Assembly: GCF_005435165.1 (NCBI RefSeq)
Contig: NZ_SGUC01000024.1
Location: 1-45,607, forward strand
DNA length: 45,607 bases
Reading direction: 5' to 3'
Source of the DNA: Halorubrum sp. GN11_10-6_MGM
GTDB lineage: Archaea; Halobacteriota; Halobacteria; Halobacteriales; Haloferacaceae
The translations under genes were made by a program, and so were the position numbers. This document shows positions 1-33,205 of this stretch, one piece after another. Below the pieces are notes generated by a model, which saw nothing but the letters and a program-made list of their open reading frames with translations, was not told the DNA's origin and made no database searches. Each line of letters opens with the position of its first letter. Position 1 is the stretch's first letter.

Positions 1-262
1 TACTGTTTCGGTAGCCGCCGCATTCAAGAAGTCGTCTACCGAAGCCACATTTTGCAGGGTTGCGCTGGTGTTGGACACACTTTCCGCACCCTGCCGCTTC
101 GTACGTGACGCTTTCTATGACACGCTCAGCTGGTTAAAAAGAGAACTGTATTACCCAATCAAAATGGTTTGGATCTATGGCGCTCTTGTTTGACGTGAAA
201 AACGACAATATAGTTCACTAATACTTACGCGGATTTTTATCTAAAGTACGCTTATTGACCGC
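1..262. other. window-edge segment, no assignable gene
   Basis: Two overlapping plus-strand frames are open from the window edge: one ends in TGA at 106-108, the other in TGA at 191-193. Neither translation resembles a family I recognise. The segment should contain the far end of the IS5-type element, but I find no copy of its terminal repeat here. A possible hairpin pairs TTCGGTAG near base 7 with CTACCGAA near base 37. At 252-262 the sequence CTTATTGACCGC resembles the 12-bp motif found in the left ends of elements B, D and E, but it is single and may be chance. Confidence 0.25.
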
Positions 263-1084
263 TCAGAGTGATCGATCTACGTTATGAATGAGACAGGCGA
301 TGATGAGTTCACGGAACTGCTTCCACCAGCACCGTGACCGGACAAATGCACCGTACTTCCGCTTGAGTGTTGAGTTGACACTCTCGGATTGACTCCGCTG
401 GCCGTAGAGATCAGTGTCTAAGCGTGCGTTCCATGCTCGGTGGAGTGGCGTGAACTCACGGTGCTTAATCAGTGGCCGAATCTCGTGTTGTCGGGCAAGT
501 CGCCTGATTTTCTGGTCGTCGTAGCCCTTGTCACCGAGGAGAACGTCGATATTCTCGGGATTGCGCTTGATCAACGATGGAACGATCTGGCTATCGTGTT
601 TCCGCGTCGTCGTTACGTGTAGATCGAGAATCGCGTTCACTTTCGTATCGACCAGCAGTGTCACTTTGAGCTGCTGAATCGTAAGCTCAGCCCGTTTCGT
701 GTAGTGTTTCGAGGCATGACTCCGGTCGAAACCTGACGCATCGACTCCAACGATACCGTTTGTCGGAAGTAGCGTCGCTGAGAGAGTCAATATAACACGC
801 CAGACAGCCATATCAAGCCGAGTGAACGCCTTACAGAGCGTTGACGGTGTAGGTAGTTCAGCTAATCCAAGAGCTCGACGAATACGTGGCATCTCGATTA
901 ACTCGTCAAGCAGTCCACGGTAGGTCGTATTCTTCCGAACTTTGAGACACAGTAGAACAACGTGCTGCGGAAGTGTATAGCGGTGTTTAGAGAATTTCGA
1001 GGAGTATCGAGACACTGCTCGGCGTGCCAGATGGATCGCCTTCTCAGTAAAACGCAGAATCTGCGACTTCGGGAGGGTCTTCAT
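263..1084 (-). CDS. IS5-family transposase
   Basis: The 273-residue protein is a full-length DDE transposase of the IS5 family, probably the haloarchaeal ISH1 group. The RNase H-like core residues are visible: Asp115 in GVDASGFDRS, Asp185 in LLGDKGYDD and Glu234 in QSESVNSTLKRKYG, with the Y-R/K signature after the glutamate. No frameshift or stop interrupts it, so it may be active even though only one terminal repeat of its element is recognisable. It is the only transposase in the window whose terminal repeat matches the ends of the cargo elements A-E, which makes it a candidate for moving them. Assignment to the IS5 family is firm from the motifs; the subgroup is inferred from length and target-site size. 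Confidence 0.9.
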   Translation of the reverse strand: MKTLPKSQILRFTEKAIHLARRAVSRYSSKFSKHRYTLPQHVVLLCLKVRKNTTYRGLLDELIEMPRIRRALGLAELPTPSTLCKAFTRLDMAVWRVILTLSATLLPTNGIVGVDASGFDRSHASKHYTKRAELTIQQLKVTLLVDTKVNAILDLHVTTTRKHDSQIVPSLIKRNPENIDVLLGDKGYDDQKIRRLARQHEIRPLIKHREFTPLHRAWNARLDTDLYGQRSQSESVNSTLKRKYGAFVRSRCWWKQFRELIIACLIHNVDRSL

Positions 1085-1136
1085 CTCATGGAATTACAGG
1101 ACGAACATGTAACTCTCTGAGGGTTTCAACAAAGCC
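263..1136 (-). mobile_element. IS5-type insertion sequence, one end identified
   Basis: The transposase gene starts 52 bp inside a clear terminal repeat whose outer end is at 1136. Read inward on the minus strand it is GGCTTTGTTGAAACCCTCAG. The opposite end, expected shortly below 263, was not found, so the element may be truncated or its other end strongly diverged. The terminal repeat differs by one base in 20 from the left end of element B. ISH1-group IS5 elements typically make 8-bp target duplications, the size seen around elements B and C. Confidence 0.7.
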
Positions 1137-2527: not shown

Positions 2528-2851
2528 TTGAAGACCAATTTCGAGTTCTTCAAACCGGCGTCAGATTATCCAGTAGTATGGACACAGACGACTCTCACAG
2601 CGACGTCGTCCCTGGGAGTGATGAGGAACCCGACACGCCGGATGTTGGTGGCTACAACTTTCGCGGAGAATTTGATTTTGACGAGATGCTTGACGCGTAT
2701 GGGACAACGGGGTTCCAGGCGACGCAGCTCGCAGAGGCAATCGACATCGCCGAACGCATGCAGGAGGCGGACGCTACTGTCTACCTCACGTTCACGTCAA
2801 ACATCATCTCGTCGGGGCTGCGCGAGACCGTCGCGTATCTTGTTCGAGAGG

Positions 2852-3249
2852 GGCTTTGTTGAAATCCTCAGAAGTTGATAGTTTTGTGCCTCCAATCGCT
2901 CAGTACAGGGGACTCACGGGTCGCTCAATACAGACGAAGGAGATCTCAACCGGGTCTGGTGGTTTTAATATTGTTGTCAGGAAATGAGCTACCGTGACTC
3001 CAAAAAAGATTCTTACAGTATATATTGCCCTTCCTTGCCTCCTATACGGCGTGTTCTTTCTCTCGGCCCTCACATGGTATTCCGAGATGATTGGGACAGA
3101 TACACTGCGAACCACACATACAGTATTTGCCAGTTATATCGCCCTCATTCTTTACACAAAACGGGACCAACTAACCGCTGAGTAAGCAGTCTCATCGACT
3201 GGCTGTTTCAGGCGATAATATGTCTGAAGAATAGGATTTCAACAAAGCC
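2852..3249. mobile_element. cargo element B, 398 bp, with 8-bp target duplication
   Basis: The element begins GGCTTTGTTGAAATCCTCAG and ends with AGGATTTCAACAAAGCC, a near-perfect terminal inverted repeat of about 16 bp. It is flanked by identical 8-bp duplications TCGAGAGG at 2844-2851 and 3250-3257. The left end contains two copies of a 12-bp motif, TCGCTCAGTACA at 2896 and TCGCTCAATACA at 2921. The right end shares its last 60 bp with element C. It contains one small gene and no transposase. The perfect duplication and intact host-gene halves indicate recent insertion. Confidence 0.93.
2994..3185 (+). CDS. 63-residue two-helix membrane protein (element B cargo)
   Basis: The predicted protein has two hydrophobic segments, about residues 5-26 (ILTVYIALPCLLYGVFFLSA) and 43-55 (TVFASYIALILY), separated by a polar loop, and a short charged tail. 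It starts with GTG; a TATA-like TTTTAATATT lies about 28 bp upstream, in keeping with a leaderless transcript. An overlapping frame on the same strand gives a polar, unconvincing peptide. The gene is the only content of element B and points from left end to right end. Its topology resembles the 55-residue protein in element C, although the sequences are clearly different. I do not recognise a family. Confidence 0.6.
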   Translation: MTPKKILTVYIALPCLLYGVFFLSALTWYSEMIGTDTLRTTHTVFASYIALILYTKRDQLTAE

Positions 3250-4070
3250 TCGAGAGGGGTATGTGGACGTAGTTATTACGACGTCTGGATCGCTCACCGA
3301 GGACGTGATCAAGACGGCAAAGCCATTCAAAATGGGAAAATGGGACGCAGACGAGGCATCGCTCCGTGAGCGTGGGATCAATCGGCTCGGGAATCTCTTC
3401 GTTCCTTCTGACCGGTATGTGTGGTTGGAAGAGTATCTGTATGATTTCTTTGAGGACTTTTTCGCAGAGGAGAAAGTGAGAACACCGACGTCGTTCGCAC
3501 GCGAGTTAGGTGAAACTCTTGAGGATGAGGATTCGGTTCTGAAGCAGGCGGCGGACAACGACGTACCGGTGTACTGTCCAGCGTTGACGGACTCCGAGGT
3601 CGGGAACTTCCTCTACTACTATCGGCAAGGGTACGATTCAGAAGTGGGTATTGAGATTTTGGACGACTATGACTCGCTAATTGAAGATTGGCTGCTCGCG
3701 GACTCGACAGGGCTCATCGCGGTGGGGGGTGGAGTACCGAAACACCATGCAATCATGACGAACCTCTTTCGAGGAGGAGCGGATTACGTGGTGTATATTT
3801 CAACGGGGATGGAGGGTGATGGGTCATTATCGGGAGCACCGCCGAACGAGGCGGTTTCTTGGGGGAAGATCAAAGAAAATCAGACGAACTACACACAAGT
3901 GGAAGCAGAGGCAACACTTGTCTTCCCACTGCTTGTGGCGAAAGCATTCAAACAATAACCTCTCAAACGCCCGTTTCGGGTCTGCTATGCTCTCGAGTGG
4001 GCGGAATTAGCGCAATAATCACGACCACAGATGCCTCGATTGTACAACAGGATTCGCGACGGTCAGCCGT

Positions 4071-4913: not shown

Positions 4914-7900
4914 TCAGTTCACAGCCTCCTCGACTATCTCGATCTCCTCGTCGGTGAGCCCGTACAGCTCGTAGACAATCTCGTCGATCAGGTCGTCGGT
5001 CTTCTCGATCTTCTCGTCAAGCTCCTCGGCACGCTCGACCGCCCGGAGGTAATTCTCTAGGTCGTCAGCCACGTCGTCGACATCGGGCAACTCGATCACC
5101 TTCAACCGGTCGACGAGCGAGTTCGTCTTCGTCGCCGCCTCGCGGAAGTTCGCGAAGCCGCCCGCCTCGTCGACGGCGACCGGAACGAAGTGCTCGATCA
5201 GATCCGCCTCCGGCTCCGTGAGATCCGTGATCCGGAACGCGGGCAGGGGGTCCGTCTCGGTGTATCCCCACTGGTCCGTCTCGTGCGCGTCTTCGTTTTC
5301 AGGCTTGTAGCGAGCAGTGGCTTTGATCAGGACGGTGTTGGAGGATTCGCGCTCAACTGAAACACTACCTGTTTTCAGATTCGGGTAATCTTCAGTAGTT
5401 TTGTTGAGTATCGAATCTGTTTGGGCTGTCGGTTGGAGAAGTCCAACTGAACTGATCTCTACGTCATAGCTCGTGTTTCCGAGATATTGTTGGAAATTCA
5501 GATTGAACCCTGATCGCTTATTTTTGTACTCAATGAGTGGGTCTACAACGCTTTCAATAAGTTCATACGACGAACCTGCCTCAGATAGGTGTTCAGAAAC
5601 TTGTGGAGGATAGTCCTCTTCACTGAAGCTTGAGAGATCGACACTCTCTGAATCTAATATGATGGGCAGTGATTCAAGATGAGATTGCTGTAGATGGGGG
5701 AACTTGATCTCATCATTTTGGAACGCATGAAGATACCAAAATGAGAGGAGGCGGGCAGGGAGTAGGCCACAGAGATAGTCCAGATTTTCACCACACTGCA
5801 TATGATAGACCATATTCGTCGAGTAGTATCCGTGTGTGTCCTTGCCGATAATCAACTCAGAGGCCAAAAATCGGACCAGCAGTTTCGGTGCCTCCTCGTA
5901 TATTTCTCGACCTTTTAGGGTATCCTCATCGATCGCATTTAGATCGATATGCTGTCCGGAGTGTTTCACGTAGTGTCGATTGACATCCCTGTGGTCGACA
6001 ATTGGTCTGGTCGACTCAGATGCTTGGTCACTGATTGACGCATGATTCATACCACACTCTGCACCGCGATTAATCGATACGTGAGGTCCGAGTCGCGTTG
6101 TAGACGACCTGTTTATTTTATCCACAAGATCTATTTGGGATTGGGAGCTGTTGACCGGGAAGATTGTAAACGGCATCGCAGGAAGCAGGCTATCACTTAC
6201 CTCCCACGTTTCGATCTGGTTCTTATTTTGCCGTTCGCCCATCAGGGTCGGAGTGTCTGTGCTATCGTTTCTGGACAACAGAATGAGCGCATCGTTGTTG
6301 ACTCCCTCAAAAGCTACACCGAGGTCGATTGCCTGCGACAGCTTCCGGTCAGTAGCTAGCCGCTTCCTCAGGTCTTCATATGATTCATTCGTCGCGATTC
6401 TTTTTGGAACTACGAAACACAGAGGATCGGAACCACCAGAGAGCTTGATCCCTCTCTCAAGGAGTACTGCAGCAAGGTCAAATTGACCGACAGCAGACAC
6501 GTACTCCTCGCGCATATAACTCACCAAATCATCGGGCATACTTCCGGTTCGTGTCCCCATCCACGGAGGGTTTCCAACGACCGTATCGAAGCCCAACTCT
6601 GCCTTCTTTTTTCCATCCCGATTGAAGAATACCTCGGGGAACTCCAGTTCCCAATGGAAGAAGTCCTGCTCCTCGGCGGTCGCCTGTGCAGGTTTGAACC
6701 AATCCGTTTTCTCAATCTCTGCCCAGTCGTCTCCATCTTCGATCGCACCCGCCATCTGCTCGTAGGCGTCCTCGGGCACGTCGCAGCCGAACTCCTCGGC
6801 CGTGTGGACGTTCGCAAGTTGGAACAGCCGCTGATACAGCGGGTCCTCGCGAATTTCCTCGTACAGTTCCTCCATCGACTTCACGCTCTCCAAGGAGTCG
6901 TTGTCGAACGCGAGGAGATCCGACATCAGCTCCATCACGTGTTCGAGCGTGTCCTGCCGGACTCGTGCGAAGGCTTGCGTCAGCGTGAGCTGGCCGCCAT
7001 TCTCCTCCGTGTCGTCCGAGAGGACCTCCGTGATGTCGCTACCGACGAGCGAGTTCCCGGTTTTTAGGTGGTGGTCTAAGAACGCGAGCGGCTGGTCCGC
7101 CGCGAGGGTTTCCAACCACATCGAGAGCTTCGACAGCTCGACCGCCATCCCATTCAGGTCGACACCGTAGATGACTTCCTTGGAGATGTCACGGCGGATG
7201 TCCTGCTCATCGTACGACTGGATCTCCTGTTCGCGAACGACGCTCATCACCTGCTCGGTGAGGTAGCCCGTGGCCTTCGTCAGGAAGTGACCCGATCCCA
7301 TCGCCGGGTCGAGGATTGTCAGGCCCTTCACCTCCTGCCAGAACTCGACAAAGTACTTCCGGTCGCTCGGTTCTAGCCCCTCCTCGCGGAGTTTCGAATC
7401 GATCTCATCGATCAGCGGGTCGACCGTCTCCTCAACGATGTAGGTGACCACGTAGTCCGGGGTGTAGTACGCCCCCGTGGCTTTGCGCTCGCCCTCGTCA
7501 TTGACGACGTATAGCCCACCCTCGTCGACGACCTCGACCGCGTCAGCGACCGACACCTCGTCGCCCGGCTTCCACACCTGTCCACCATCCTCCGCGACCG
7601 CGGCGACGCCCTCTGGCCCCGCAATTCGGAACTCGTGTTCGAGCAGCCCTTCGTAGATCGATCCGAGGTGTCGCGTGTCGAGGTCAGCGTAGTCCGCTGG
7701 GACGTGCTCGCCCTCGTCGTTCTCTGTCGTCGACAACCAGAAAATCACCTCTGCAATGTACGGGTCCTTCACCTCGTGTTCGGTGAGGAACGCGTGATCC
7801 TCGTGGCTGAATAGCCCACCGTTGTACGGCGGGATGTCGAGGTCCTCTTCGCCCTCGTCAATCAGCTCGAACAGCTCGGAGAGCCGCCCCCAAATCGATG

Positions 7901-8945
7901 AGGAGTACTGACTGAATTCGTCGTCGAACGCGTCTCCTGACTCGACGTCGAGCCCCTCCATGTCGTCGATGATCTCTTCACGCTTTGCTTCGAGGCTGAA
8001 GTACTCTTGATACTCGTCACTGGCTGCGGGGTCGTCGGGATCGATTAGACCCCGTGACTCGGCATAGAGGACAAACATCAACCGATAGAGCAACACAAGC
8101 GACTGCTTTTTCAGCTCGTCGCGAGCGTCCTCGTCATCCGGATCGATGTCAAGGTCGTTCGACTCAACAAATCCTTTGCCGAGCACACGCAGTGCTCGGA
8201 ACACGTTGTCTTGGAGGTCCTCGCCAAGTTCCTGTGCGGCAGTCTCCGATTCTGTCCATACGTTGTCGAGGAACGAACTTCCCGCTGTCTCGACAAACGC
8301 TTCTGGCCTGAAGAAGACATAAAAATACTTGAACGCCTCCAGATCCCCGCTTTCGAGAATTTCCGGGAGATCGACCTCATAGTAGGTCTGTGTCTCGTAG
8401 TCTTTCGTCCCGTAGAGCCGCCACTTCTTCCCGTCCGTTAGGACACCCCATTTCAGATCGCTTGGCGTCCGTTCGAGGTAGTATTTGATCTGGTGAGACG
8501 CGTCTCGGTACGAGCGCTGCTCTGCGAATCGCTGCTCGAAGTCGGAGTCCCACTGCTTGGCTTCGAGGATCGCTGACGCCCGTGAGAATAGCCCCTCGTG
8601 GTCCCCGTCGAGGGCTCGCTTTGCTCCCTCTCGGCGTACGTCGTCATTTTCGAAGAGCAGCCGATCGACGTAGCCACCACCGTCTGGGAGAGTCACCTCC
8701 GAGCTCGTACCGTACCCGAGGATGTCGACGACTTCGGCAATCCACGTGCCAATTAAATCGTCTTCGTTGTAGGAGGGCAGGAGTGTACCTTCCTTCTCCC
8801 AGAGGTCGCGTATCTGCTCGAAGGCTTCCTTGGCCTCGGCGTCGCAGTCCCATGCGTCGAGATCGGCGACGCGCTCATCGAGATAGTAACCGGAGAAGAG
8901 GTTGGAGTTCTGGTAGGGACCACTCCCGAGCGTCGCTTGACTCAT
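4914..8945 (-). CDS. Type IIG restriction-modification protein (Eco57I-like)
   Basis: This single polypeptide of about 1343 residues combines nuclease, adenine methyltransferase and target recognition. The N-terminal region has a nuclease-like core with AILEAKQWD (E-x-K) near residue 127, then QIKYYLERTPSDLKWGVLTDG, a segment typical of Type IIG N-domains. The methyltransferase has the AdoMet-binding motif LDPAMGSGHFL near 544 and the catalytic motif VGNPPWMGTR near 792. The last 500 residues, partly lower in GC, should hold the target-recognition region and end in a helical, acidic segment. No separate specificity gene is present. I chose ATG 8945 rather than GTG 8963 because a TATA-like TATTTAAT lies about 31 bp before the ATG and too close to the GTG. 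The membrane-protein gene follows after 2 bp. A BREX PglX is less likely because no other BREX gene is in the window. Confidence 0.88.
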   Translation of the reverse strand: MSQATLGSGPYQNSNLFSGYYLDERVADLDAWDCDAEAKEAFEQIRDLWEKEGTLLPSYNEDDLIGTWIAEVVDILGYGTSSEVTLPDGGGYVDRLLFENDDVRREGAKRALDGDHEGLFSRASAILEAKQWDSDFEQRFAEQRSYRDASHQIKYYLERTPSDLKWGVLTDGKKWRLYGTKDYETQTYYEVDLPEILESGDLEAFKYFYVFFRPEAFVETAGSSFLDNVWTESETAAQELGEDLQDNVFRALRVLGKGFVESNDLDIDPDDEDARDELKKQSLVLLYRLMFVLYAESRGLIDPDDPAASDEYQEYFSLEAKREEIIDDMEGLDVESGDAFDDEFSQYSSSIWGRLSELFELIDEGEEDLDIPPYNGGLFSHEDHAFLTEHEVKDPYIAEVIFWLSTTENDEGEHVPADYADLDTRHLGSIYEGLLEHEFRIAGPEGVAAVAEDGGQVWKPGDEVSVADAVEVVDEGGLYVVNDEGERKATGAYYTPDYVVTYIVEETVDPLIDEIDSKLREEGLEPSDRKYFVEFWQEVKGLTILDPAMGSGHFLTKATGYLTEQVMSVVREQEIQSYDEQDIRRDISKEVIYGVDLNGMAVELSKLSMWLETLAADQPLAFLDHHLKTGNSLVGSDITEVLSDDTEENGGQLTLTQAFARVRQDTLEHVMELMSDLLAFDNDSLESVKSMEELYEEIREDPLYQRLFQLANVHTAEEFGCDVPEDAYEQMAGAIEDGDDWAEIEKTDWFKPAQATAEEQDFFHWELEFPEVFFNRDGKKKAELGFDTVVGNPPWMGTRTGSMPDDLVSYMREEYVSAVGQFDLAAVLLERGIKLSGGSDPLCFVVPKRIATNESYEDLRKRLATDRKLSQAIDLGVAFEGVNNDALILLSRNDSTDTPTLMGERQNKNQIETWEVSDSLLPAMPFTIFPVNSSQSQIDLVDKINRSSTTRLGPHVSINRGAECGMNHASISDQASESTRPIVDHRDVNRHYVKHSGQHIDLNAIDEDTLKGREIYEEAPKLLVRFLASELIIGKDTHGYYSTNMVYHMQCGENLDYLCGLLPARLLSFWYLHAFQNDEIKFPHLQQSHLESLPIILDSESVDLSSFSEEDYPPQVSEHLSEAGSSYELIESVVDPLIEYKNKRSGFNLNFQQYLGNTSYDVEISSVGLLQPTAQTDSILNKTTEDYPNLKTGSVSVERESSNTVLIKATARYKPENEDAHETDQWGYTETDPLPAFRITDLTEPEADLIEHFVPVAVDEAGGFANFREAATKTNSLVDRLKVIELPDVDDVADDLENYLRAVERAEELDEKIEKTDDLIDEIVYELYGLTDEEIEIVEEAVN

Positions 8946-9103
8946 GTAATACCAAATCCACACGTCAGCGCGATTAAATAGATGGCGGAGCGATTCCCAA
9001 CACTGGCTCGTCCTGACGGAGAGCGTAGGCGGTAGTATTCAGACCGTTCACGACTCACTCTACCCGAACTATCAATTAGTCCGCTAGACACCACTCGATA
9101 CAA

Positions 9104-9916
9104 ATGGACGAAACGACCGCTCGCAAGATCCTCTCGGAGATCGACGAGCCAACGGAGCCGACGCTCCGAGAGCTACAGCAGACGGCGATCGGTAGCGTCA
9201 AGGCGGTTCTCTCAGATACAGGATTTCCTACCCGAGAGGAGGTCAGCCGGCGGCTCTCATACACGTTCTACTACGACTGGGAGACTGACGATCCGGACAT
9301 TGTCCTCCTCGTTCAGGATCCAGGGAACCTCCATGAACGTCACTTGTCGGAACTGCGTCCGCAGAACCCACTCGCCGGCGAATGTTCTGCTCGCGACCAG
9401 ATCGGCGTCTACCGCGAATTTGCCAAGAGCTGGTTGACCGGGCGAAATGCTGACTTCTCGGAGCGTTTTTTCGAGACGCTCGCCCGTCACGATCTCATTT
9501 CGCTCCCGAACGGCTGGCACCAGTACGTCGACTCTGGACAGTTCTATCGAGACTTCTACCTCGGCGACGTCGTGAAGTACCGCGTCGACGGTTTCGGAGT
9601 TGCCGCCGAGCGCGCCTCGTATCAACACCTCCTCAAGCAAGAACTCCGAGCGTTGGATCCGGAGCTGGTGATCACCTTCGGCGGCAACGCGTGGCCGGCA
9701 CTCCGACGCTCAACCGCGCCCGAGCCTGTCATGGAGACGGACGCCGACCCAGAGAGCATTATGGCTATCCATGGGACACTCCACCAGATCTCCGAGCCGA
9801 TCGACACCCACGTACTCCCGCTGGCTCACATGAGTGGGCAGGTCTGGTGGCGGTTCCCACCTGACGAGTACATCTCGCGACTCAGCAAGGCGCTTGAAGT
9901 GCTCGAACGCCAGTAG
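9104..9916 (+). CDS. uracil-DNA-glycosylase-like superfamily protein
   Basis: The 270-residue protein shows the pattern of the uracil-DNA glycosylase fold. DIVLLVQDPGN at residues 65-75 sits where the family has its active-site loop (typically GEAPG), DVVKYR is at 155-160, LDPELVITFGGNAWPAL at 184-200 matches the typical P-x-x-I-x-x-x-G segment, and THVLPLAHMSG at 235-245 takes the place of the HPS motif. The residues differ from canonical family 4/5 enzymes, so its substrate may not be uracil. It is transcribed away from the Type IIG gene across a shared 158-bp intergenic region. Glycosylases of this fold are known in antiphage defence against modified bases (Brig1), so a defence role is possible but inferred from position. 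Confidence 0.7.
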   Translation: MDETTARKILSEIDEPTEPTLRELQQTAIGSVKAVLSDTGFPTREEVSRRLSYTFYYDWETDDPDIVLLVQDPGNLHERHLSELRPQNPLAGECSARDQIGVYREFAKSWLTGRNADFSERFFETLARHDLISLPNGWHQYVDSGQFYRDFYLGDVVKYRVDGFGVAAERASYQHLLKQELRALDPELVITFGGNAWPALRRSTAPEPVMETDADPESIMAIHGTLHQISEPIDTHVLPLAHMSGQVWWRFPPDEYISRLSKALEVLERQ

Positions 9917-10266
9917 CGAAAACGACGGGAGGCGACACGTATCGGCTCGACATGAGATAGCGACTCAACTGATTGTAGGCGGTCACGTGTCTGGGAGGGT
10001 CGGACCATATGTAGAGATAGGGGCCGCAAGCCCGAAATGTGGGACTACGGCTAAGTGCCAGACAGTCTATGAGATGCGGATGTGGGTCGTACCGTTATTT
10101 TGGCTCTGCTAAAATCTCTTCTTCAGATACATTCCCGCCTGAAAAGGCCACCTGGGGAGAGCTTCTCATTAACCTTTTACCACGGCTCGTTTAGTCATTC
10201 TGCCCTCGTGCTGTCTTTGGATTCAGCGAACCACATTCGACACTATCCATTAAGGGCTATGATTGT

Positions 10267-10274
10267 TTTATATA
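10267..10274 (+). promoter_or_regulatory. TATA box of the element E histidine kinase
   Basis: TTTATATA is centred about 25 bp before the ATG at 10295, the expected spacing for a leaderless haloarchaeal transcript. It lies inside element E, so the kinase gene brings its own promoter. Confidence 0.6.
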
Positions 10275-10294
10275 TTCAGTACGTGTGAGCAATA

Positions 10295-11725
10295 ATGAGA
10301 GACAATACGGCTTCAAAAAGGGATAATGAACGGGGGGCCGACTGGTATCGAGCACTCGTCGAGGAAGTGAACGACCTCGCAACAGTCGTCGATACCGACG
10401 GGACAATACGCTACGTCAGTCCAGCCGTCACGCGAATTCTTGGTTACGAGCCCGACGAGTTAGTCGGTCACGAAGGGTACGAATTTGTCCATCCCGACGA
10501 TCGAGAGCGAAACGCTGAGGCGGTCGAAGCGGTTCTGTCAAACCCGTCAGAACCAGAGACCGTCGAAGTCCGATTCAAGGATGCTGACGGATCGTGGTGC
10601 TGGATCGAAGCCACGATGAGGAATCGGCTTGACGACGGCCTTATTGACGGTATTCTCCTCAGCAGTCGGGACATCACCGAGCGAAAAGAGCACGAGAACG
10701 ACATTCGGGAACTCGCCGAAGAGTACGAAGCCCTCTTAGATAATGTGGAGGACGCGATCTTTCTCGTAGCTGTCGAGCAGTCGGACAGTGGTGTCAGGTT
10801 CGAATTCGAACGGCTCAGCCCGTCTTATGAGAGACAAACAGGGATTACAACTGAAGAAGTACAAGGGCGGACGCCACGAAACGTATTCGGCGAAGAGCAA
10901 GGGGCAGAACTCGAAGCAAACTATCACCGGTGTGTCAGCGCTGGTGAGCCAATTTCGTATCAAGAGGAGCTACGGGTCAATGAGGAGGCACGCTTCTGGC
11001 AGACGAAGCTCGCGCCGGTGATCACCGGTGATGAGATAACTCGCCTCATCGGGATCACCCGGAATGTCACCGATCGCGTTGAACGAGAGCAACAGTTACG
11101 GCGACAGAACGACCGGCTCGACGAGTTTGCGAGCGTTATTTCTCATGACTTGCGTAGCCCGCTCAACGTCGCACAAGGTCGTGCGGCACTCCTTGCTGAG
11201 CAGGCAGAAAGCGACCATCTCGATCCCCTCTTACGAGCGCTCGATCGAATCGAAGCAATTGTCGAGGATACGTTGACTCTCGCACGGCAGGGAAACACAA
11301 TAAGCGAAACAGAGGCGGTCAGTTTGACTGATCTTCTCGGGAAGTGTTGGGCCACAGTAGACACGAGCAACGCAACCATCGAAATCGTAGACGAGATGAT
11401 GTTCCAAGGCGATCCGGGCCGGTTGCGACACGTGTTCGAGAATCTGTTCCGGAACGCTGTCGAACACGGTGGGCCTGACGTGACCGTTCGTGTTGGGCGT
11501 CACGGCGAACAGGGAATATACGTCGAAGACGACGGGCCAGGAATTCCAGCAGACAAGCGCAAAGAAGTGCTTGAACCGGGGCATTCTTCGGCTAGTGATG
11601 GTACTGGTTTCGGGTTGACCATTGTAAAACGGATTGTAGAAGCTCACGGATGGAAGTTGTCTGTGACTGATGGAACAGAGGGCGGCGCGCGGTTCGAAAT
11701 CACAGACATTGAATCCGCTAGTTAG
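10295..11725 (+). CDS. PAS-PAS sensor histidine kinase, soluble
   Basis: The 476-residue protein has two PAS domains (about 15-130 and 140-265). A HisKA helix follows with the phosphorylated His284 in EFASVISHDLRSPLN, then a HATPase domain with N-box FENLFRNAVEHGG, G1 box EDDGPGIP and G2 box GTGFGLTIVKR. All kinase motifs are intact. There are no membrane segments, so it should sense a cytoplasmic signal, for example redox or light through a PAS ligand. There is no response regulator next to it, which is common for haloarchaeal kinases. It is the cargo of element E. A fragment almost identical over the HisKA helix survives at 31715-31985, evidence that related kinase genes have spread in this genome. 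Confidence 0.92.
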   Translation: MRDNTASKRDNERGADWYRALVEEVNDLATVVDTDGTIRYVSPAVTRILGYEPDELVGHEGYEFVHPDDRERNAEAVEAVLSNPSEPETVEVRFKDADGSWCWIEATMRNRLDDGLIDGILLSSRDITERKEHENDIRELAEEYEALLDNVEDAIFLVAVEQSDSGVRFEFERLSPSYERQTGITTEEVQGRTPRNVFGEEQGAELEANYHRCVSAGEPISYQEELRVNEEARFWQTKLAPVITGDEITRLIGITRNVTDRVEREQQLRRQNDRLDEFASVISHDLRSPLNVAQGRAALLAEQAESDHLDPLLRALDRIEAIVEDTLTLARQGNTISETEAVSLTDLLGKCWATVDTSNATIEIVDEMMFQGDPGRLRHVFENLFRNAVEHGGPDVTVRVGRHGEQGIYVEDDGPGIPADKRKEVLEPGHSSASDGTGFGLTIVKRIVEAHGWKLSVTDGTEGGARFEITDIESAS

Positions 11726-11770
11726 ATCCTCTGTGTTGAGCGGTTCATGAGTTCCATACATTGAGCGATC

Positions 11771-13358
11771 GTACGTGTTTACCCTGAAGACTCAACAATC
11801 GGAGCAGCCTGATCCCGTGAGATCATCTCGTTGTCGCGGACAACCCGCCTGAGTTCGTCGTAAGGATTGCGTCCCTGCTGGCGCCACGTCGCCAGCAGGG
11901 ACAAGACTGTCTCGTGGACAAACATTCCTCGGTCATTACGAAGCGTTCCGATGATCTTCCGGAGAACAACAGGTTCACGGAGTGCGTTCTCCGCGGCGTT
12001 GTTCGTCGGGGAGACCGCTGGCTCACCGACGAAGGTGAGCCAGTGGTCGAGTCCTCCTTCGATCTTCCCGAGCAGTGTTGCCACCGGTCCGTCGGGAACT
12101 GACCGCTCAATCAGCGACTCAAGGTCTCTGCGCGCTACGCGCTGTAGTTCTGCCCGCCTGCGTAGAGTCAAGTCGCTCTCCAGCCGAGCCTGGAGAGCGA
12201 CGTAGAGTTGCCTAAGAGCTTGGTAGATCGGTTTGCCATCTGCCTGTTTTTGCGCAACGTCTTCAGCCTCTCGGAGAATGTGCGCCCAACACCGCTGAAG
12301 ATTACTGCTGAAGGCGGGGTACGCCGTCCATCCGTCACAGATGACCGTTCCCGCGAAGTCCTCGCCGAGGACTTCGGCGGGAACATCACTCCCACGACTC
12401 TCTCTGACCGCGTACAGCGTGTGTTCTGTCGTCCGAAACGTCCAGATCCACGCTTGCTCACCGTCGCGTTTGATGCCTGTTTCGTCGATGTGAACCACGT
12501 CAGCTCCTTGGATTTCTCGACGGAGTTGCTCATACTCGCAGCGACCGGCGCGCGCAGCGCGCTCGGTCGCGTGCAATGTAGATGCGCCAGAGAGTTCGAG
12601 TCCGTGTAGTTGCTCGAAGCGATCGGCGATCTTCCGGTAGGGGAGACGATAATCGTACCGAGAGAGTGCTGATTGAGCGATAACGTTCACCCCGAACTGC
12701 CCCTCATCGGGGCAGTCGGGGTGTGTCGCAACTGTCTCCGTTCCGCAGGAGTCACACTGGTAGTAGTGGCGATTGTACTGGGTGACTTCTGGAGGCTGTG
12801 GATCCGGGATCTCCTCGACGAGTCGGGGGCTGACGCCCACCGACTCGTCGAAGTGGTCGCCACACTCAGGACAACAGTCACAGGTAACCTCAACTTCTTC
12901 GTCAGGATCAGCGTGAGACCGCCACTCTGGCTCGTGACCGTCTTTTCGACCGGGAGTACCGCCGTCAGTACGAGGTTCTTCGTCGTCGTCCTCGCCGGGC
13001 GAGGACGACGACTCGTCATCGGTCGATTGTTCTTTGCTCGGTGGCGTATGCGGTCCTTCGTGCCACCGGAGCTTCGCCCTGAACTGTTTGTTCTCTTCGC
13101 GGAGCCGTTCGTTTTCCTCACGGAGCTGTTCGTTCTCTTCTCGAAGCCGTTGATTTTCTTCCTCAAGCGCAGTGAGTCGTTCGAGGATCTCTTTCTTTGT
13201 AGGCTCTGAAGAAGTCATAAACAGGCGAAACGGGATGGTCTCCGGTCAGGAGACCATCCCTCAGGAATCCACTTGCTCGCCTGTTGCATCGATCTACGAT
13301 ATCTCTCAAACGGCTCCTAGGAGAGAGTACCGAAATCGATCTCGGGCTAAACACGTAC
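11771..13358 (-). mobile_element. IS66-type insertion sequence, 1588 bp, complete
   Basis: The ends are inverted repeats starting GTACGTGTTTA at 11771 and, on the other strand, at 13358. Perfect 8-bp duplications GAGCGATC flank them at 11763-11770 and 13359-13366. IS66 elements make 8-bp duplications, so the boundaries are well supported. The insertion sits inside the left end of element E, within one of its 12-bp motifs. Removing it restores the motif series at regular 25-bp spacing. It carries only the large transposase gene. Confidence 0.9.
11779..13218 (-). CDS. IS66-family transposase
   Basis: This 479-residue transposase begins with a long heptad-patterned coiled coil rich in Leu, Arg and Glu (about 14-50), followed by an acidic, disordered segment. 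Next comes a zinc-binding region with CDCCPECGDHF near 110-122 and a second pair, CDSCG. The DDE catalytic core has VVHIDETGIKRDG, VICDGWTAYPAF and NNAAENALREPVVLRK. Length and domain order match the IS66 family (IS66_N zinc region plus catalytic domain). The small accessory proteins of some bacterial IS66 elements are absent, as is usual for the archaeal single-gene type. The frame is intact and the element has perfect target duplications, so it is likely active or recently so. Confidence 0.93.
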   Translation of the reverse strand: MTSSEPTKKEILERLTALEEENQRLREENEQLREENERLREENKQFRAKLRWHEGPHTPPSKEQSTDDESSSSPGEDDDEEPRTDGGTPGRKDGHEPEWRSHADPDEEVEVTCDCCPECGDHFDESVGVSPRLVEEIPDPQPPEVTQYNRHYYQCDSCGTETVATHPDCPDEGQFGVNVIAQSALSRYDYRLPYRKIADRFEQLHGLELSGASTLHATERAARAGRCEYEQLRREIQGADVVHIDETGIKRDGEQAWIWTFRTTEHTLYAVRESRGSDVPAEVLGEDFAGTVICDGWTAYPAFSSNLQRCWAHILREAEDVAQKQADGKPIYQALRQLYVALQARLESDLTLRRRAELQRVARRDLESLIERSVPDGPVATLLGKIEGGLDHWLTFVGEPAVSPTNNAAENALREPVVLRKIIGTLRNDRGMFVHETVLSLLATWRQQGRNPYDELRRVVRDNEMISRDQAAPIVESSG

Positions 13359-13484
13359 GAGCGATCTATGAGCGTCCTGTATTGACCGGAACCAAGTCGG
13401 AATATCTTGCCTAGTGAGGATTTCAACAGAGCCTGCTTAGGATTTGGTCAGTCGCTATGTGGCAGTTATGTCGTACATGTCAGC

Positions 13485-13560
13485 TACTTCCCCGACCTAC
13501 CTACTCATTCCGTTCGCTTCTTGAGGTCGGGAGCTCCATCCCAAAAGTGCTGAATCCGAC
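13485..13560 (-). other. solo TnpB 3' end with guide-RNA-like hairpin (relic)
   Basis: On the minus strand a short frame reads FWDGAPDLKKRTE then stop, resembling the C-terminus of the intact TnpB here (SPTLKERTASAVSE). The DNA forms the same kind of hairpin: CCCGACCTCAAGAAGCGAAC pairs back with GTAGGTCGGGG over 13491-13531. No other part of a tnpB gene is next to it. In active elements this region is both the end of the gene and the source of the guide RNA, so this is a detached scaffold or a decayed end. Confidence 0.55.
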
Positions 13561-13586: not shown

Positions 13587-13943
13587 TCATTCCGTCCGCT
13601 GTGTGTTGAGAATCACCGCAAGGGCACCGCCGACGAGTATAAACGCACCGAACAGCACAATCAGGACGGTCTGGTTCTCAATGCCGTACCCGAACACGAA
13701 TACACCGACCATCGCCGAGATTACCCCTCCGGCCTGGCGGACAGCTGAGTACTGCGCTTCATAAATTGCGGCCCCAGTAACTGCGATAATCGAGAGGAGA
13801 ATCCCAGCCCAGTATAGCGGGCTAGCCGAACCGATGCCGACGACGGAGACCGCTAGAGACAGCGCTGCGATGATAATACCCGCTACGGCGATCCGACTCC
13901 CCCATCGGACGCCATCGGCAAGGGTGTCGGAGTGCTCACTCAT
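13587..13943 (-). CDS. four-helix membrane protein coupled to the giant surface protein
   Basis: From ATG 13943 the protein has 118 residues with four hydrophobic segments, at about 15-37, 42-61, 68-85 and 91-109, and short charged tails. I do not recognise a family. Its start overlaps the stop of the giant surface-protein gene in the sequence ATGAGTGA, so translation is probably coupled and the two products may work together, for example in anchoring, assembly or export. An upstream GTG at 13955 is possible, but the overlap favours ATG. It is the last gene of the three-gene operon. Beyond it lies a TnpB relic, which marks the operon end. Confidence 0.7.
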   Translation of the reverse strand: MSEHSDTLADGVRWGSRIAVAGIIIAALSLAVSVVGIGSASPLYWAGILLSIIAVTGAAIYEAQYSAVRQAGGVISAMVGVFVFGYGIENQTVLIVLFGAFILVGGALAVILNTQRTE

Positions 13944-16900
13944 CTTTCTCACCACCGGTATCGTCGTTTTGTATCTCGAGGAGTTGTCCCATCATACCCC
14001 GCTGCCAGATGGGATACACGACGAGCAACAGGCCCACGAGTGGTATAAGAAGCCACCAGTACCAACAGATGACCAAGGATCCGTAATCGATCCCGAACAT
14101 CTCACACCCGCTGTCTTCGATGGTAGGCCCAGTAACCACGAACTGCGAATACCCGTTCGTCGTGGCACGGAATCGGTAGGCAGAATCAGATTCAGAGACC
14201 AGCGTGACATTCTGCGTGCGCCACTCGCCATCGGAGTACCGTTCGAATGAGATCTCATCAGGCTCAGTTCCCGCCGGCACTGCCGATTTTTGTACCTTGA
14301 AGACAAACGACGTATCCGTGAAGGTTTCACTCGGTACGGTGTAGTCTACTGAGACGTACTGGACTGCTGACCTGTCTGGCTCTGTGACCACGGCATCCGA
14401 CCGAATTGGGTCTGTTGAGTGGGTTACATTCATACTGAAGTTACCGGTTCGGGTCACAGTCATATTGGTTTCCTCAATGTTCGCCGGGCGACCAGTAATA
14501 CTCGGACGTGACGTATTGACCAGGTAGTTGCTATTCTCGGGAATGTATTTTCCTTCAATATTGACCGTTCTGTCGTCAGTATCTGTGTCGACACCAACTT
14601 CCTGTACGACGAGGTATGCCCCGGTGTTCGAGAGCCAGACGTCAATCTGTGAGACCCTCGCGTTGCTGACAATCTGGAGCTGTGCCTGCCGCTCGTCAGT
14701 TGTCCGTGGAGTAAACCGGATGTAGATCTCACGGCGCTCGCCCGGAGCTAGGGTAAACGGGGCGTCGCTGTCGTTGACCACAGCAAACTCGCTGGGATGT
14801 CGCCCAGTGATTGTGGTCTCCTCAATGACGAGTGTGCTGTTCGAAGTTACCAGATTCCTCACCACGATGCTCCGGATCTGGGGCTCTCCGACCGTGTCGT
14901 TCTCGAACTGGACTCGCTCTGGTTCGACACCGATTTGTGGCTGTGTCGAACTCGGCCCCTCAGTCGTGGGTGGAGTGGGCGTCGTGGTCGTGCCGCCGTC
15001 ATCTCCATCACTCTCATCGCTTCCGTCGCCACTGTCACTTCCATCACTCTCATCGCTTCCGTCGCCACTGTCACTTCCATCACTCTCATCGCTTCCGTCG
15101 CCACTGTCACTTCCATCACTCTCATCGCTTCCGTCGCCGTCATCGCCTCTATCGCCACCGTCACTGTCATCATCTCCGTCACCACCGTCACTGCCATCGC
15201 CACCGTCGCTGTCATCACCTCCATCGCCACCGTCGCTGTCATCGCCTCCATCGTCACCGTCACCACCGTCGCTGTCATCACCTCCACCGCCACCGTCGGT
15301 TGACGTATCTACGTCTGTAGTGTCTTGTTGGTCTTCAGCACCGTCGTTACCCGCGTTGTCTTTGGCCGTCTCCAGCGTCGCGTTGTAGGTTCCGTCACTG
15401 CTTCCGTTATAGATCGCGGTATAGGTTCCGTTCGTCGCATCGTAGATGAAGTCGTCCTCCGTTAGCGTCGTGTTCTCCGGCCCGCTCAGATCCACGCTGA
15501 TGTTCGACAGCTCTTCGCTGCTGTTGAACGTCACCAACACGTTCTGTCCGGGTTCTTCCGAGACATTGAACGAGTCGTCCGGAATGTCGGGTGCGGTCGT
15601 GTCGACGGTCACCTCGTCAGACTGTCCGGTGGCACCATCGTTGCCGGCGCCGTCCTCAGCCGTCTCCACCGTCGCGTTGTAGGTACCGTCGCTGCTGCCC
15701 TCGTATGTGGCGGAGTAAGTGCCGTTGTTGGTGTCGTCGGTGAAGTCCTCCTCAGTCAGCGTGGCGTCTTCAGTGCCGGAGACGTTGACGCTGATGTTGT
15801 TGAGTTCTTCGCTGCTCTCGAAGCTAACGGAGACGTTCCGGCCCTCTGGGTTCGAGACGCTGACGTTCGAAATTGTTGGTGGGGTCGTGTCGACGGAGAA
15901 GTTGACCGTGTCGGAGCCGACGTTGCCGCTGCCGTCGGCGGCGTAAACCGTGACGTTGTGCTGGCCGTCGGAGAGAGTCAGCGTTTTGTTCAGCGTCTGG
16001 GTGCCGTTGGCACCGCCGCTGGCGGTCTGGTTGGCAGCGCCATCAACGCTGTATGTCCAGTCACCCGTTTCGTTCGCGCTCGCGTTGAACGCAACGGTAC
16101 CGGTGGCAAACGTCTCACCCTCCGTCGGCTGGTCGATACTCACTTCCGGGGCGGTCGTATCGCCGGTGATTGTCACCGTCAGCGTTGCCGTATCAGTGCC
16201 ACCTTCCTGATCGCTCACAGTGTAGTCGAAGATGTCGTTCAGCGTCTCGCCAGCGGCCAGCTCCTGGACATCCGTTGAGGTGTCGTTCAGGTTGTAGGTG
16301 TAGTTGCCGTCGGCCTCGATCGTCACATTGCCGTAGTTGCCCGCCACCGTCGAGTTGACATCCCCGTCGCTGTCGTTCACTTCGGAAACCACTAACTGAC
16401 CGACCGGGTCGTCGTCGCTGTCGATGCCGTTTCCGTCGTCGTCACCGATAACGTTCCCGCTGGCACTGGTCGGCCCGTCCTCGCTCACCGAGGCATTATT
16501 ATCGGTCGCATTCGGCGCCGGGTTGTTCACCGTCCAGTCGAATGTGCCGGTTTGGTTGGCGTTAGCCTTGCCGCTGCCGTCGTCGGCCGTGATAGTGACG
16601 TTGTAGGGTCCGTTCTGCGAGGCCGAGTCGTTGATCGTGCCGTTGATTTCGCCGGTGCTCGAGTTGATCGTCAAGCCGGTCGGCAGGTTGCTGGCGTTGT
16701 ATGTCAGCGTGTCGCTGGCATCGATGTCGGAGAAGTTGTTCGAGATGTCCACGCTCACCGTGTCACCGTCGTCGTCGGTCTGGTTCGGCAGCGCCGTGTC
16801 CAGAACCGGCTGGTCGTTGGTGCCGGTGATGGTCACCGTCAGCGTCGCCGTATCGGTGCCGCCTTCTTGATCGCTCAAGGTGTATTCGAAGGTGTCGGTT

Positions 16901-26023: not shown

Positions 26024-26157
26024 GCGATTGGCCCTATCTCTTCTCGTTCAGACTGAATATCGTGTGAAACAGCTGGTCACTGAACAATGCGTACTTACCT
26101 ATCGTCATCTCGGGATACCAAACGCTACGGGCCAGTACTTGAGACGGACGTGGCTGA

Positions 26158-26640
26158 CTACGCCGCTGTCGATCCCAGGTTCTCCTGAATACGATCAAAC
26201 AGATGGAACACAACTCCCAGTATAGAACAGAGCATGCCGATCGCCGCGAGTAGGAGCCAGCCGCCGAAGGCGAACGGGAGCATGCGGTCCGCAAGCGTTG
26301 TGAGCGGGGAACCTGAGCTCGGAAGTCGGGCAAGTTCTATGAACAGTGGAAGGACGGTCCCGACACTGCCCACGACCGCGCCGGCACTGAGGAACGCTCG
26401 GGCAAGACGCGTCGGCGAGCCGAAACGCACTACCGCCGCTAGCGTGGTCGCCTCCGCAAGCGCAAACAGGCCTGTGAGTCCGATTCCAAGACCAATCGCG
26501 GCGACAATACCCGCGACAAAGCCGTCGCCACGGGGTTCAGCGGGAATTCCACTAAGAGTGTACCACGCATAGCCGAGGCCAATACAACTGAGGAGCGCAG
26601 CACCGCCAGCGATTGCGAACGGGCGGTTACGGAGGGGCAT
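26158..26640 (-). CDS. 160-residue membrane protein (element D cargo)
   Basis: The protein has four hydrophobic segments, at about 8-29 (FAIAGGAALLSCIGLGYAWY), 43-72, 80-107 and 125-148, with few charged residues until the C-terminal tail (LFDRIQENLGSTAA). I do not recognise a named family. It reads from the left end toward the right end of element D. A TATA-like AAATATAT lies about 29 bp before the ATG, and the two 12-bp motifs of the left end lie just upstream of that, so they could act as operators here. The gene is intact even though the element's right tip is decayed, which suggests selection on the product or recent arrival. A role in transport or sensing is possible but not shown. Confidence 0.7.
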   Translation of the reverse strand: MPLRNRPFAIAGGAALLSCIGLGYAWYTLSGIPAEPRGDGFVAGIVAAIGLGIGLTGLFALAEATTLAAVVRFGSPTRLARAFLSAGAVVGSVGTVLPLFIELARLPSSGSPLTTLADRMLPFAFGGWLLLAAIGMLCSILGVVFHLFDRIQENLGSTAA

Positions 26641-26733
26641 ATCGGTCGGTCACCCGTGATCGATATATTTTTTGTGTGTATTGACCGATCCGTGGTTCAC
26701 CTGTACTGACCGCAGGGAGAATCAAACATAACA

Positions 26734-27113
26734 GGCTCTGTTGAAATCCTCAGAAAATGATATATTGAATCCGGTTGCGGTCACTACAGGATACTCACTA
26801 GTAGACCAGATCTCCATATAGTACGAGGCCGGCTGGGATGGCGAGAGATTATCTGTAATGAACAGAATATGATTAAGATGAGCGCAAACAAGAGCATCAT
26901 CGGTCTTCAGGTATCCATACTAGGCTTGGCAGTAGCTAACTTCTACCGAGGGTCAGATATATTTGGGTTTTTAGTGCCTGTTGCCCTCTTATTATATGGT
27001 TCGTATCTGGTTGGAAATAACGAGTTTGATCGTTGAGAAGTAAGATACGCAGTTCTCATCCACCGGCTGTTTCACATGGAATTATGTCTGAACAATAGGA
27101 TTTCAACAGAGCC
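26734..27113. mobile_element. cargo element C, 380 bp, nested in element D
   Basis: It begins GGCTCTGTTGAAATCCTCAG and ends AGGATTTCAACAGAGCC. Identical 8-bp duplications ACATAACA flank it at 26726-26733 and 27114-27121. Removing it and one duplication rejoins the left end of element D in the same pattern as element B's left end, so C inserted into D. The last 60 bp closely match element B, with GGCTGTTTCA, ATGTCTGAA and AATAGGATTTCAACA in the same order. It carries one 55-residue gene and no transposase. Confidence 0.93.
26869..27036 (+). CDS. 55-residue two-helix membrane protein (element C cargo)
   Basis: The frame starts MIKMSANKSIIGLQVSILGL, has hydrophobic segments at about 10-24 and 31-49 (IFGFLVPVALLLYGSYLVG) and ends NNEFDR. 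A second ATG lies at codon 4. The frame occupies the centre of element C and points from left to right, as in element B. The arrangement of a short basic N-terminus and two helices is like the element B protein, although identity is low. Such a small product cannot be proven from sequence alone. The matching position in B and C is the main support. Confidence 0.5.
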   Translation: MIKMSANKSIIGLQVSILGLAVANFYRGSDIFGFLVPVALLLYGSYLVGNNEFDR

Positions 27114-31714: not shown

Positions 31715-31985
31715 TCAGCTTTGAACGTTAGCGTCGGCTGTTGAGTGAACTAAGAGGTGATCGATCTCTTCGATAAGGTCATCGACGTCACGATCATCGT
31801 TGTCTCGAACGGCTGTGTTGAATCGCTGTAAGGCGTAGGGATTCACTAGTTGACGGAGCGCTTGATGTTCCCTGTTCGGCAAGAAGCGCCGCACGACCTT
31901 GTGCGACGTTGATCGGGCTACGCAAGTCGTGGGAGATCACGCTCGCAAACTCGTCGAGCTGGTCGTTCTGTTGCTGTAATCATCC
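31715..31985 (-). pseudogene. chimeric relic: histidine kinase HisKA piece joined to another gene's tail
   Basis: On the minus strand the sequence reads LQQQNDQLDEFASVISHDL and RSPINVAQGRAALLAEQ, almost identical to residues 268-307 of the element E kinase. The frame then shifts and the rest reads EHQALRQLVNPYALQRFNTA and onward, a coherent 51-residue tail ending NVQS and a stop at 31715. There is no start or sensor part upstream, and a TGA lies directly before the HisKA piece. It is therefore a broken fragment. The tail does not belong to the kinase family and I cannot name it. Confidence 0.7.
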
Positions 31986-33118: not shown

Positions 33119-33130
33119 TCCACGGCGCTC

Positions 33131-33140
33131 TCTTTTTTTT
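33131..33140 (+). terminator. T-rich terminator after the prenyltransferase
   Basis: Eight consecutive T residues within TCTTTTTTTT lie 13-22 bp after the stop codon. Archaeal RNA polymerase commonly terminates at such runs without a stem-loop. Confidence 0.5.
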
Positions 33141-33176
33141 ATTGAAGGCACGTAGTTTAATTTCTTAGACATAAAG

Positions 33177-33186
33177 TTAGTATACA
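33177..33186 (+). promoter_or_regulatory. TATA box of the 7TM histidine kinase
   Basis: TTAGTATACA is centred about 24 bp before GTG 33206. This supports the GTG as the start and a leaderless transcript. Confidence 0.5.
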
Positions 33187-33205
33187 TTGGTGTCCTTGTA
33201 ATACT

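Follow-up and report, generated by a model that had tools for sequence, protein, structure and literature searches.

A 45,607-nt stretch of the archaeon Halorubrum sp. GN11_10-6_MGM (contig NZ_SGUC01000024.1 of assembly GCF_005435165.1; below, the window) carries at positions 10102-13433 an element, here called E, in which a PAS histidine kinase gene lies between two transposon-type ends, one of them interrupted by an IS66-family insertion sequence. The source assembly is a 3.32-Mb Halorubrum draft of 200 contigs (genome G000), and the window is its contig C118. Three classes of related ends are distinguished throughout: left ends beside a transposase gene (LEt), left ends beside a short spacer (LEn) and right ends (RE). 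The features of E are the following:

10102..13433, plus strand: element E, made up of a right end, the PAS histidine kinase and a left end with IS66 inside; 1,736 bp without IS66 and one duplication copy
10102..10149, plus strand: right-type end (RE), GGCTCTGCTAAAATC plus a CTTCTTCAGA stretch, decayed; profile score 26.6 bits, E-value 6.5e-7
10267..10274, plus strand: TATA-like box TTTATATA, 21-28 nt before the ATG
10295..11725, plus strand: open frame of a soluble PAS-PAS-HisKA-HATPase_c histidine kinase, 476 aa
11718..11742, minus strand: third 25-bp repeat unit, overlapping the final bases of the kinase gene
11743..11767, minus strand: second 25-bp repeat unit, adjoining the first once IS66 is removed
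11763..11770: copy 1 of the IS66 target duplication GAGCGATC, perfect
11771..13358, minus strand: IS66-family insertion sequence, 1588 bp, terminal GTACGTGTTTA
11779-13218, minus strand: IS66 transposase gene, within the 1588-bp IS66
13359..13366: copy 2 of the IS66 target duplication GAGCGATC, perfect
13359..13433, minus strand: left-type end (LEn) with the exact 17-bp end motif; profile score 48.8 bits, E-value 6e-14
13364..13388, minus strand: first 25-bp repeat unit CGGTCAATACAGGACGCTCATAGAT, which is the joint motif of the family described below

Both ends were recognized, at the scores given above, by profiles trained on 19 right and 22 left ends of the same genome from which the two ends of E had been excluded. 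The terminal inverted end motif, common to E and to transposase-bearing copies, is exact at 13433 and has 4 mismatches at 10102. Removal of IS66 in silico restores three 25-bp units, with a lag-25 identity of 0.53 vs 0.37 for the interrupted sequence; the value of 0.53 was reached by none of 5000 shuffles at this lag and by 3 of 5000 at any lag from 15 to 35. Hence the right-type and left-type ends, the kinase with its own TATA box, the IS66 with perfect 8-bp duplications in the left end and the repeat series restored by its excision, all of which had been read from the letters of the window in the original prediction, were borne out. The IS66 arrived after E, splitting its left end, and probably disabled it. 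The kinase transcript, to judge from the spacing of the TATA-like box, may be leaderless. A general 25-bp periodicity of left ends was considered and rejected (mean over 48 left ends 0.263 vs a shuffle mean of 0.252 and maximum of 0.281), and the repeat is found in a subset only, 9 of 48 having two motif copies, with a spacing of 25 in six of these nine.

The DNA to the left of E matches genomes G005 (90%) and G039 (86%) exactly up to 10101, beyond the equivalent of which both run into one common sequence; G039 retains the identical final 8 flank bases, GTTATTTT. To the right, positions 13435-13555 match nine fetched loci at 78-81%, the window match beginning at 13435 or later, and by eye sequence further left is also common to six of the seven right-flank loci printed. 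Both boundaries of E are supported, because the flank homologies break at 10101 and at 13435 or later. A complete empty site for E (GTTATTTT-AGAAGTTG) was rejected: the left half alone was matched, and the expected right half was not in the window (best 26-base match, 9 mismatches). The simplest reading of the right flank is a deletion or recombination that followed the insertion of E.

The kinase of E has a relative that travels with a transposase. A 2592-bp element, in which an IS5 transposase is followed by a kinase about 81% identical to that of E, occurs in plasmids of Haloplanus sp. GDY1 and Haloarcula pelagica with perfect 8-bp duplications (AGTCAATC and GATTGGCT, respectively). The two copies are 98.1% identical over 2591 bp and, in the stretches compared, have no megablast match outside the element. 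The occurrence of this transposase-plus-kinase element at different sites in two genera gives the strongest support to the suggestion that the kinase is cargo. A distinct kinase, with REC, four PAS_4 stretches, HisKA and HATPase_c in an 857-codon frame, about 38% identical to that of E, lies in an element of G016 with the duplication AAATAACC.

Near full-length orthologues of the E kinase (at least about 60% identity) occur in 11 of 51 other Halorubrum genomes and in plasmids of other haloarchaeal genera. The dN/dS (the ratio of nonsynonymous to synonymous substitution rates) is 0.134 against the own-genome paralogue and 0.065-0.138 across 20 comparisons, a set that excludes L077 (internal stop) and L229 (truncated) and in which dS exceeds 1 in most comparisons. 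We sought end motifs within 400 bases of 23 kinase loci, of which L228 is truncated where its record begins and L229 interrupted by an IS5. Beyond E, ends on both sides were found in G025, G008, G011, G041 and both plasmids, the transposase-side end of the plasmids lying beyond 400 bases, and ends on one side at the kinase loci of G003 and G005. In other parts of the kinase tree, the spacing between such ends and the orthologous kinases is similarly short. By eye, end-like motifs lie on either side of the G008 kinase, with a duplication that matches at 7 of 8 positions; at the G011 kinase 6 of 8 match. At L229, on the Salinigranum marinum plasmid NZ_CP100463.1, the kinase orthologue itself is interrupted by an IS5 transposase.

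In a 22-row kinase tree the end-flanked kinases fall into three sets that lie apart, with end-free relatives between them: E; G041; and a well-supported group composed of the plasmid pair and the G003/G005/G025/G008/G011 clade. The mutual order of the plasmid pair, this clade and the end-free H. lacusprofundi kinase is unresolved, and the end-flanked kinases are therefore counted at three or four separate places in the tree. Together with the transposase-bearing version at two sites, this supports the originally predicted cargo status for the kinase family. The end-flanked orthologues whose search had been proposed were present in other genomes, though none had the same end pair as E. Orthologues that keep common neighbours without such ends, which had been named as the contrary outcome, were seen only in other sub-lineages, as no kinase locus examined shares the neighbours of E. 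These are four plasmid kinases, L234-L237 (about 75%), which have 2.7 kb of upstream sequence in common (87-92%) and may be a resident lineage, and the kinases of contig C165 in the own genome and of G034, which have neighbours in common. Matches to the window flanks in kinase loci are other family elements, repeats, transposase copies or a HisKA fragment. This fragment had been described as near-identical over 31715-31985 and as a sign of more than one kinase arrival; the match covers just 109 nt (31871-31979) at 89% on the opposite strand, with no end-profile match nearby, and is weak evidence for a second arrival. A UbiA prenyltransferase adjoining a HisKA_7TM-PAS histidine kinase at window positions 32129-34885 likewise has no end-profile match nearby.

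Most of the loci below were fetched by match to the right-end pattern, the kinase or the transposase, and their frequencies are not unbiased. The right-end pattern GGCTYTGTTGAAATCCT occurs 42 times in the own genome (at most 1 mismatch; control 0), in 48 of 52 Halorubrum genomes, the own included (at most 2 mismatches), and in 83 of 170 genomes of the host's family (at most 1 mismatch); among the right-end-pattern matches listed, 59 of 80 loci are from Halorubrum. The pattern had no exact match in viral_contigs, where the exact pattern alone was sought as a sign of viral carriage. The 142 loci fetched by right end contain 35 distinct elements with perfect duplications (201 end pairs before repeat removal), against none in a shifted-flank control. 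Over all loci, 55 distinct duplication-bounded elements reduce to 53 non-redundant ones, 13 with a transposase and 40 without. Their end pairs are LEn-RE (33), LEn-LEn (6) and RE-RE (1) in the absence of a transposase, and LEt-RE (8), LEt-LEn (3) and RE-RE (2) in its presence; the classes were assigned by a simple pattern that counts the type-2 ends of kinase cassettes as LEn, and e36 appears by eye to be a misassigned RE.

Internal end motifs (at most 3 mismatches) occur in 9 of the 53 elements, and five duplication-bounded composites were recognized (L071, L072, L160, L171 and L197). L197 (4635-6505) fuses two cassettes and is bounded by two right ends and one duplication, and its two cargoes are found singly with duplications of their own in L138 (3128-4252) and L156 (356-1111). 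L071, on contig C151 of the own genome (3371-5733; 2363 bp), has an internal left end at 4252, the outer duplication AAACAGAC and a cargo of at least two open reading frames (ORFs) of 248 and 282 aa. Such composites indicate that outer ends can carry cassettes joined to one another. An IS6-type origin of the ends, our first guess, was abandoned on finding that the transposase between such ends is of the IS5 family. A 273-aa transposase of the family shares 80-83% identity with plasmid copies that bear the annotations ISHla2 and ISHxa2; four of five matches in G000 (E-value at most 1e-80) are full-length, stop-free frames at 93-100% identity, one of them in the window, which speaks to their presence only.

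Taken together, E is very probably a non-autonomous member of a modular, cargo-carrying IS5-type transposon family of haloarchaea, and the kinase, whose cargo status is supported for the kinase family, is likely cargo in E as well. The ends, the cargo, the family with its duplications and the transposase-plus-kinase relative at two sites are observed directly. A typical member has a left module, made up of the 17-bp end motif and either a transposase gene or a spacer of ~28 bp, often next the joint motif CGGTCARTACAG in one to three 25-bp repeats, and then a variable cargo and a right end of ~70 bp. Full copies in the genome would supply the IS5 transposase, in the case of E presumably in trans; the enzyme would cut at the end motifs that the members share, and the unit would insert with an 8-bp duplication. 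E would have jumped once, before its right flank was rearranged and before IS66 entered its left end; cargo may be exchanged at or near the joint, and the kinase may give the host extra sensory input via a host response regulator.

The joint motif (at most 2 mismatches) is present in the first 30 nt downstream of the transposase stop codon in 16 of 23 copies vs 2 of 388 control windows. Of 48 LEn ends, 31 also have it at a distance of 30-70 nt from the end, 22 of them at offset 45, and in E it forms the 25-bp repeat series. This placement means that, whether or not they contain a transposase, left modules often join the cargo at one and the same sequence. The joint is a candidate site of cargo exchange; it could alternatively be a transposase-binding site or the relic of a transposase deletion. 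A bolder proposal, which we put forward tentatively, is that the family might be a haloarchaeal, transposon-based counterpart of the integron, with an IS5-type module, the joint (25-bp repeats in places), an exchangeable cargo slot and interchangeable ends, whose cassettes would fuse, be shed and jump across genera, favouring small membrane proteins and, repeatedly, sensor kinases as cargo. It is made slightly less likely by the absence of the joint from both transposase-plus-kinase elements.

We compared the cargo of those transposase copies that matched from residue 30 or earlier to residue 260 or later and had no N in the distal segment, dropping identical segments; in the 12 of 23 copies without a duplication, the inverted end that came next served as the distal one, and cargo was called unrelated if no blastn alignment (E-value 1e-3) covered 40% of the shorter segment. 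The 23 transposase copies with a distal end have 21 distal cargo types, the 11 duplication-bearing copies among them 10, and the sole duplication-bounded pair with a common type is the kinase pair. Among 49 pairs of copies with a transposase DNA identity of 90% or more, 48 have unrelated distal segments; at 95% this holds for 1 of 2 pairs. In 24 of 40 transposase-free elements, vs 0.08 expected from dinucleotide shuffles, an ORF of 45 aa or more encodes two or more hydrophobic segments, called by a simple hydropathy window; the cargo is thus biased to small membrane proteins. Pfam matches among the cargo comprise an M48 peptidase, a rhomboid, a PIN protein, a TrmB/DUF7437 protein and the kinases, joined by an RDD protein and a PGF-CTERM protein in elements without duplication, while among ten cargo ORFs tested against Pfam five had no match and one weak matches only. 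Some cargoes recur in different elements (e.g., small proteins 91% and 89% identical).

This membrane bias bears on the proposal that cargo is kept as protection against viruses or rival elements, for instance as virus-excluding surface or membrane proteins, with the kinase as one defence or surface modifier. A precedent is Hlac_3088, a passenger gene of a Halorubrum lacusprofundi transposon proposed as a virus-exclusion candidate (PMC10544981). A protein fitting it does sit between family ends: in G017, which is of H. lacusprofundi type, a transposase of the family precedes a 233-aa PGF-CTERM protein, the two being bracketed by LEt and RE ends but not by a duplication (L259, 5791-7594), the correspondence being by approximate position, domain and description and not by locus tag. 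However, virus exclusion by this passenger is, in the part of that study available to us, a suggestion and not a test (PMC10544981), and six cargo proteins compared with defence families gave no convincing match (one marginal match to SoFic), the kinase none at all. We consider protective cargo an unlikely explanation.

Several observations weigh against the reading of E as a cargo-carrying member of the family. The right end at 10102 is decayed, with its 4 mismatches to the 17-bp end motif. There is no outer 8-bp duplication (GTTATTTT vs TGCTTAGG), such as is perfect in ten other elements of the window and 14 further stretches of the same genome, and the two flanks of E belong to two different sequences. 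Where fetched loci match the left flank as far as its last 130 bases, the match ends early, at 9972-10051, in six and reaches 10101 in only two. No second copy of E with the same end pair was present among the 23 kinase loci examined, and an uninterrupted copy with this end pair and no IS66 was looked for and not found. In the wider kinase family, the second full kinase of the own genome, on C165 and 86% identical, is without ends, and a further 11 kinase loci have no convincing ones; the G025 orthologue has an internal stop. The upstream ends of G025, G008 and G011 carry 4-5 mismatches in 16 and are weak taken alone, the end-free loci G043 and G050 reaching 4-5 as well; the best match in random 400-base stretches has at most 3 mismatches in 3 of 2000, at most 4 in 34 of 2000 (about 2%) and at most 5 in 215 of 2000 (11%). 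The joint motif is absent in 7 of the 23 transposase copies, namely five others and both transposase-plus-kinase elements (4 mismatches after the stop). The kinase in these two elements also differs from that of E in orientation relative to the LEn end, so that they and E look like separate captures and not parent and offspring. Given the missing outer duplication and the differing flanks, we infer rather than observe the jump of E itself, and for want of the 8-bp target duplication we file E as a rearranged derivative of an IS5-family (ISHla2-like) transposon and not as a complete member.

The same observations could be turned into an explanation of their own, in which the two ends of E are relics of separate insertions that flank a resident kinase by chance, the kinase never having moved with them. 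The decayed right end, the absent outer duplication, the mismatched flanks and the end-free C165 paralogue all agree with it, and ends without a duplication-matched partner are common in the own genome. Yet homology is lost at the end motifs in both flanks, orthologous kinases in other parts of the tree have ends at comparably short distances, and a transposase-plus-kinase element with duplications does exist; coincidental relics are thus improbable. Least credible is that the kinase belongs to the transposition module, where it would sense stress and control transposition in the way proposed for toxin-antitoxin pairs of Tn3 transposons (PMC7157771): kinases have been taken up more than once (three or four tree places, and a second type in G016) and the kinase is under purifying selection, but the unrelated cargo in 48 of the 49 pairs with similar transposases means that no given cargo is needed for transposition.

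As a modular cargo transposon, E can be set beside known systems. The haloarchaeal IS5 family (ISHla2 and ISHxa2 as annotated) has the same transposase family, shared end motif and, in 11 copies, 8-bp duplications; E differs from it in carrying a kinase and no transposase of its own, and copies with similar transposases differ in the genes before the distal end. The ISH1 group likewise counts among the haloarchaeal IS5-family insertion sequences closest to E. In mobile insertion cassettes (MICs) a passenger gene lies between insertion sequence ends without a transposase, and in transporter insertion sequences (tIS) with one. E resembles the former, as an intact open kinase frame between such ends in which the sole transposase is that of the later IS66; what sets its family apart from both is that many unrelated cargoes go with a single transposase type, that ends of three classes enter into combinations and that a joint motif recurs. 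Classical miniature inverted-repeat transposable elements (MITEs) are under about 600 bp and non-coding, whereas E, once IS66 is left out, measures 1,736 bp and codes for a 476-aa protein. Integron cassette arrays have a site-specific integrase, attachment sites and cassettes in series behind one promoter; that the elements of the E family have ends and duplications of their own makes such an array less likely, and their joint motif resembles an attachment site by position only.

HqIRS32, an ISH2-type MITE of Haloquadratum described as one protein-coding MITE type, is likewise short and haloarchaeal, has no transposase and encodes a protein of another kind; the available part of its account describes no variable cargo (PMC3119063). 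Tn3-derived inverted-repeat miniature elements (TIMEs) also have non-autonomous ends combining into mosaics but are, as far as the accessible part of their description goes, bacterial and Tn3-derived (PMC4133298), unlike the E family with its IS5-type ends, 8-bp duplications and mostly small cargo genes. Hlac_3088 is a single passenger in a single transposon and a surface protein, not a kinase, and the portion of the study at hand mentions no family, non-autonomous forms or joint (PMC10544981). We found no account of the modular family in the literature searched, a coverage that leaves out most subscription journals, and ISHla2 had no match there. Single passengers were already known; the modular cargo-transposon family is the wider point.

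The window holds further members and relatives of the family:

1..1136, minus strand: transposase-bearing relative with left end at 1136, IS5 transposase at 263-1084 and a joint-like motif, cut off by the contig start
1886..2527, plus strand: related element with an RDD-family protein (2018-2446) and no duplication, recognized by profiles whose training set included its ends
2852..3249, plus strand: related element of 398 bp with target duplication TCGAGAGG and a 63-aa ORF, splitting a deoxyhypusine synthase gene
26039..26740, plus strand: decayed related element around a 160-aa ORF (26158-26640, minus strand); RE 37.3 bits, left end 27.1 bits
26734..27113, plus strand: related element of 380 bp with target duplication ACATAACA and a 55-aa ORF

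In the relative at 1..1136, a 136-nt match at 91% links the segment after the joint-like motif to the cargo segment of a copy in another genome. The deoxyhypusine synthase gene (2578-3958) matches PF01916 on both sides of the 398-bp element. The decayed element at 26039-26740 was struck by a younger one, its left end overlapping the start of the 26734-27113 element. Next to E on the right, 13435-13554 is a 120-bp repeat that by eye is like the 3' region of a TnpB-type element, and a TnpB gene lies at 35332-36561. On the left, 9104-9916 encodes a weakly uracil-DNA-glycosylase-like protein and recurs at 90-93% in five other Halorubrum genomes. Further out, 4914-8963 encodes a 1349-aa Eco57I-type methylase/restriction protein, whose best PADLOC match is DrmMI (DISARM methylase), with matches also to type IIG enzymes, and 13936-24390 a 3484-aa cadherin/Ig-repeat protein; the latter region is strongly strand-biased in composition, and segments of 135-253 nt are duplicated within it. 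No RNA families or tRNAs were found in the window.

How archaea gather and swap small accessory genes is, in our judgement, poorly understood. A transposase type whose cargo varies, whose ends are conserved and whose joint recurs offers a concrete and testable vehicle for such swapping, and its elements look like a swappable gene-shuttling system in archaea. The family could explain the scatter of unrelated small membrane proteins, and of some sensor kinases, over haloarchaeal plasmids and chromosomes, and its ends would be ready-made tools for haloarchaeal genetics.

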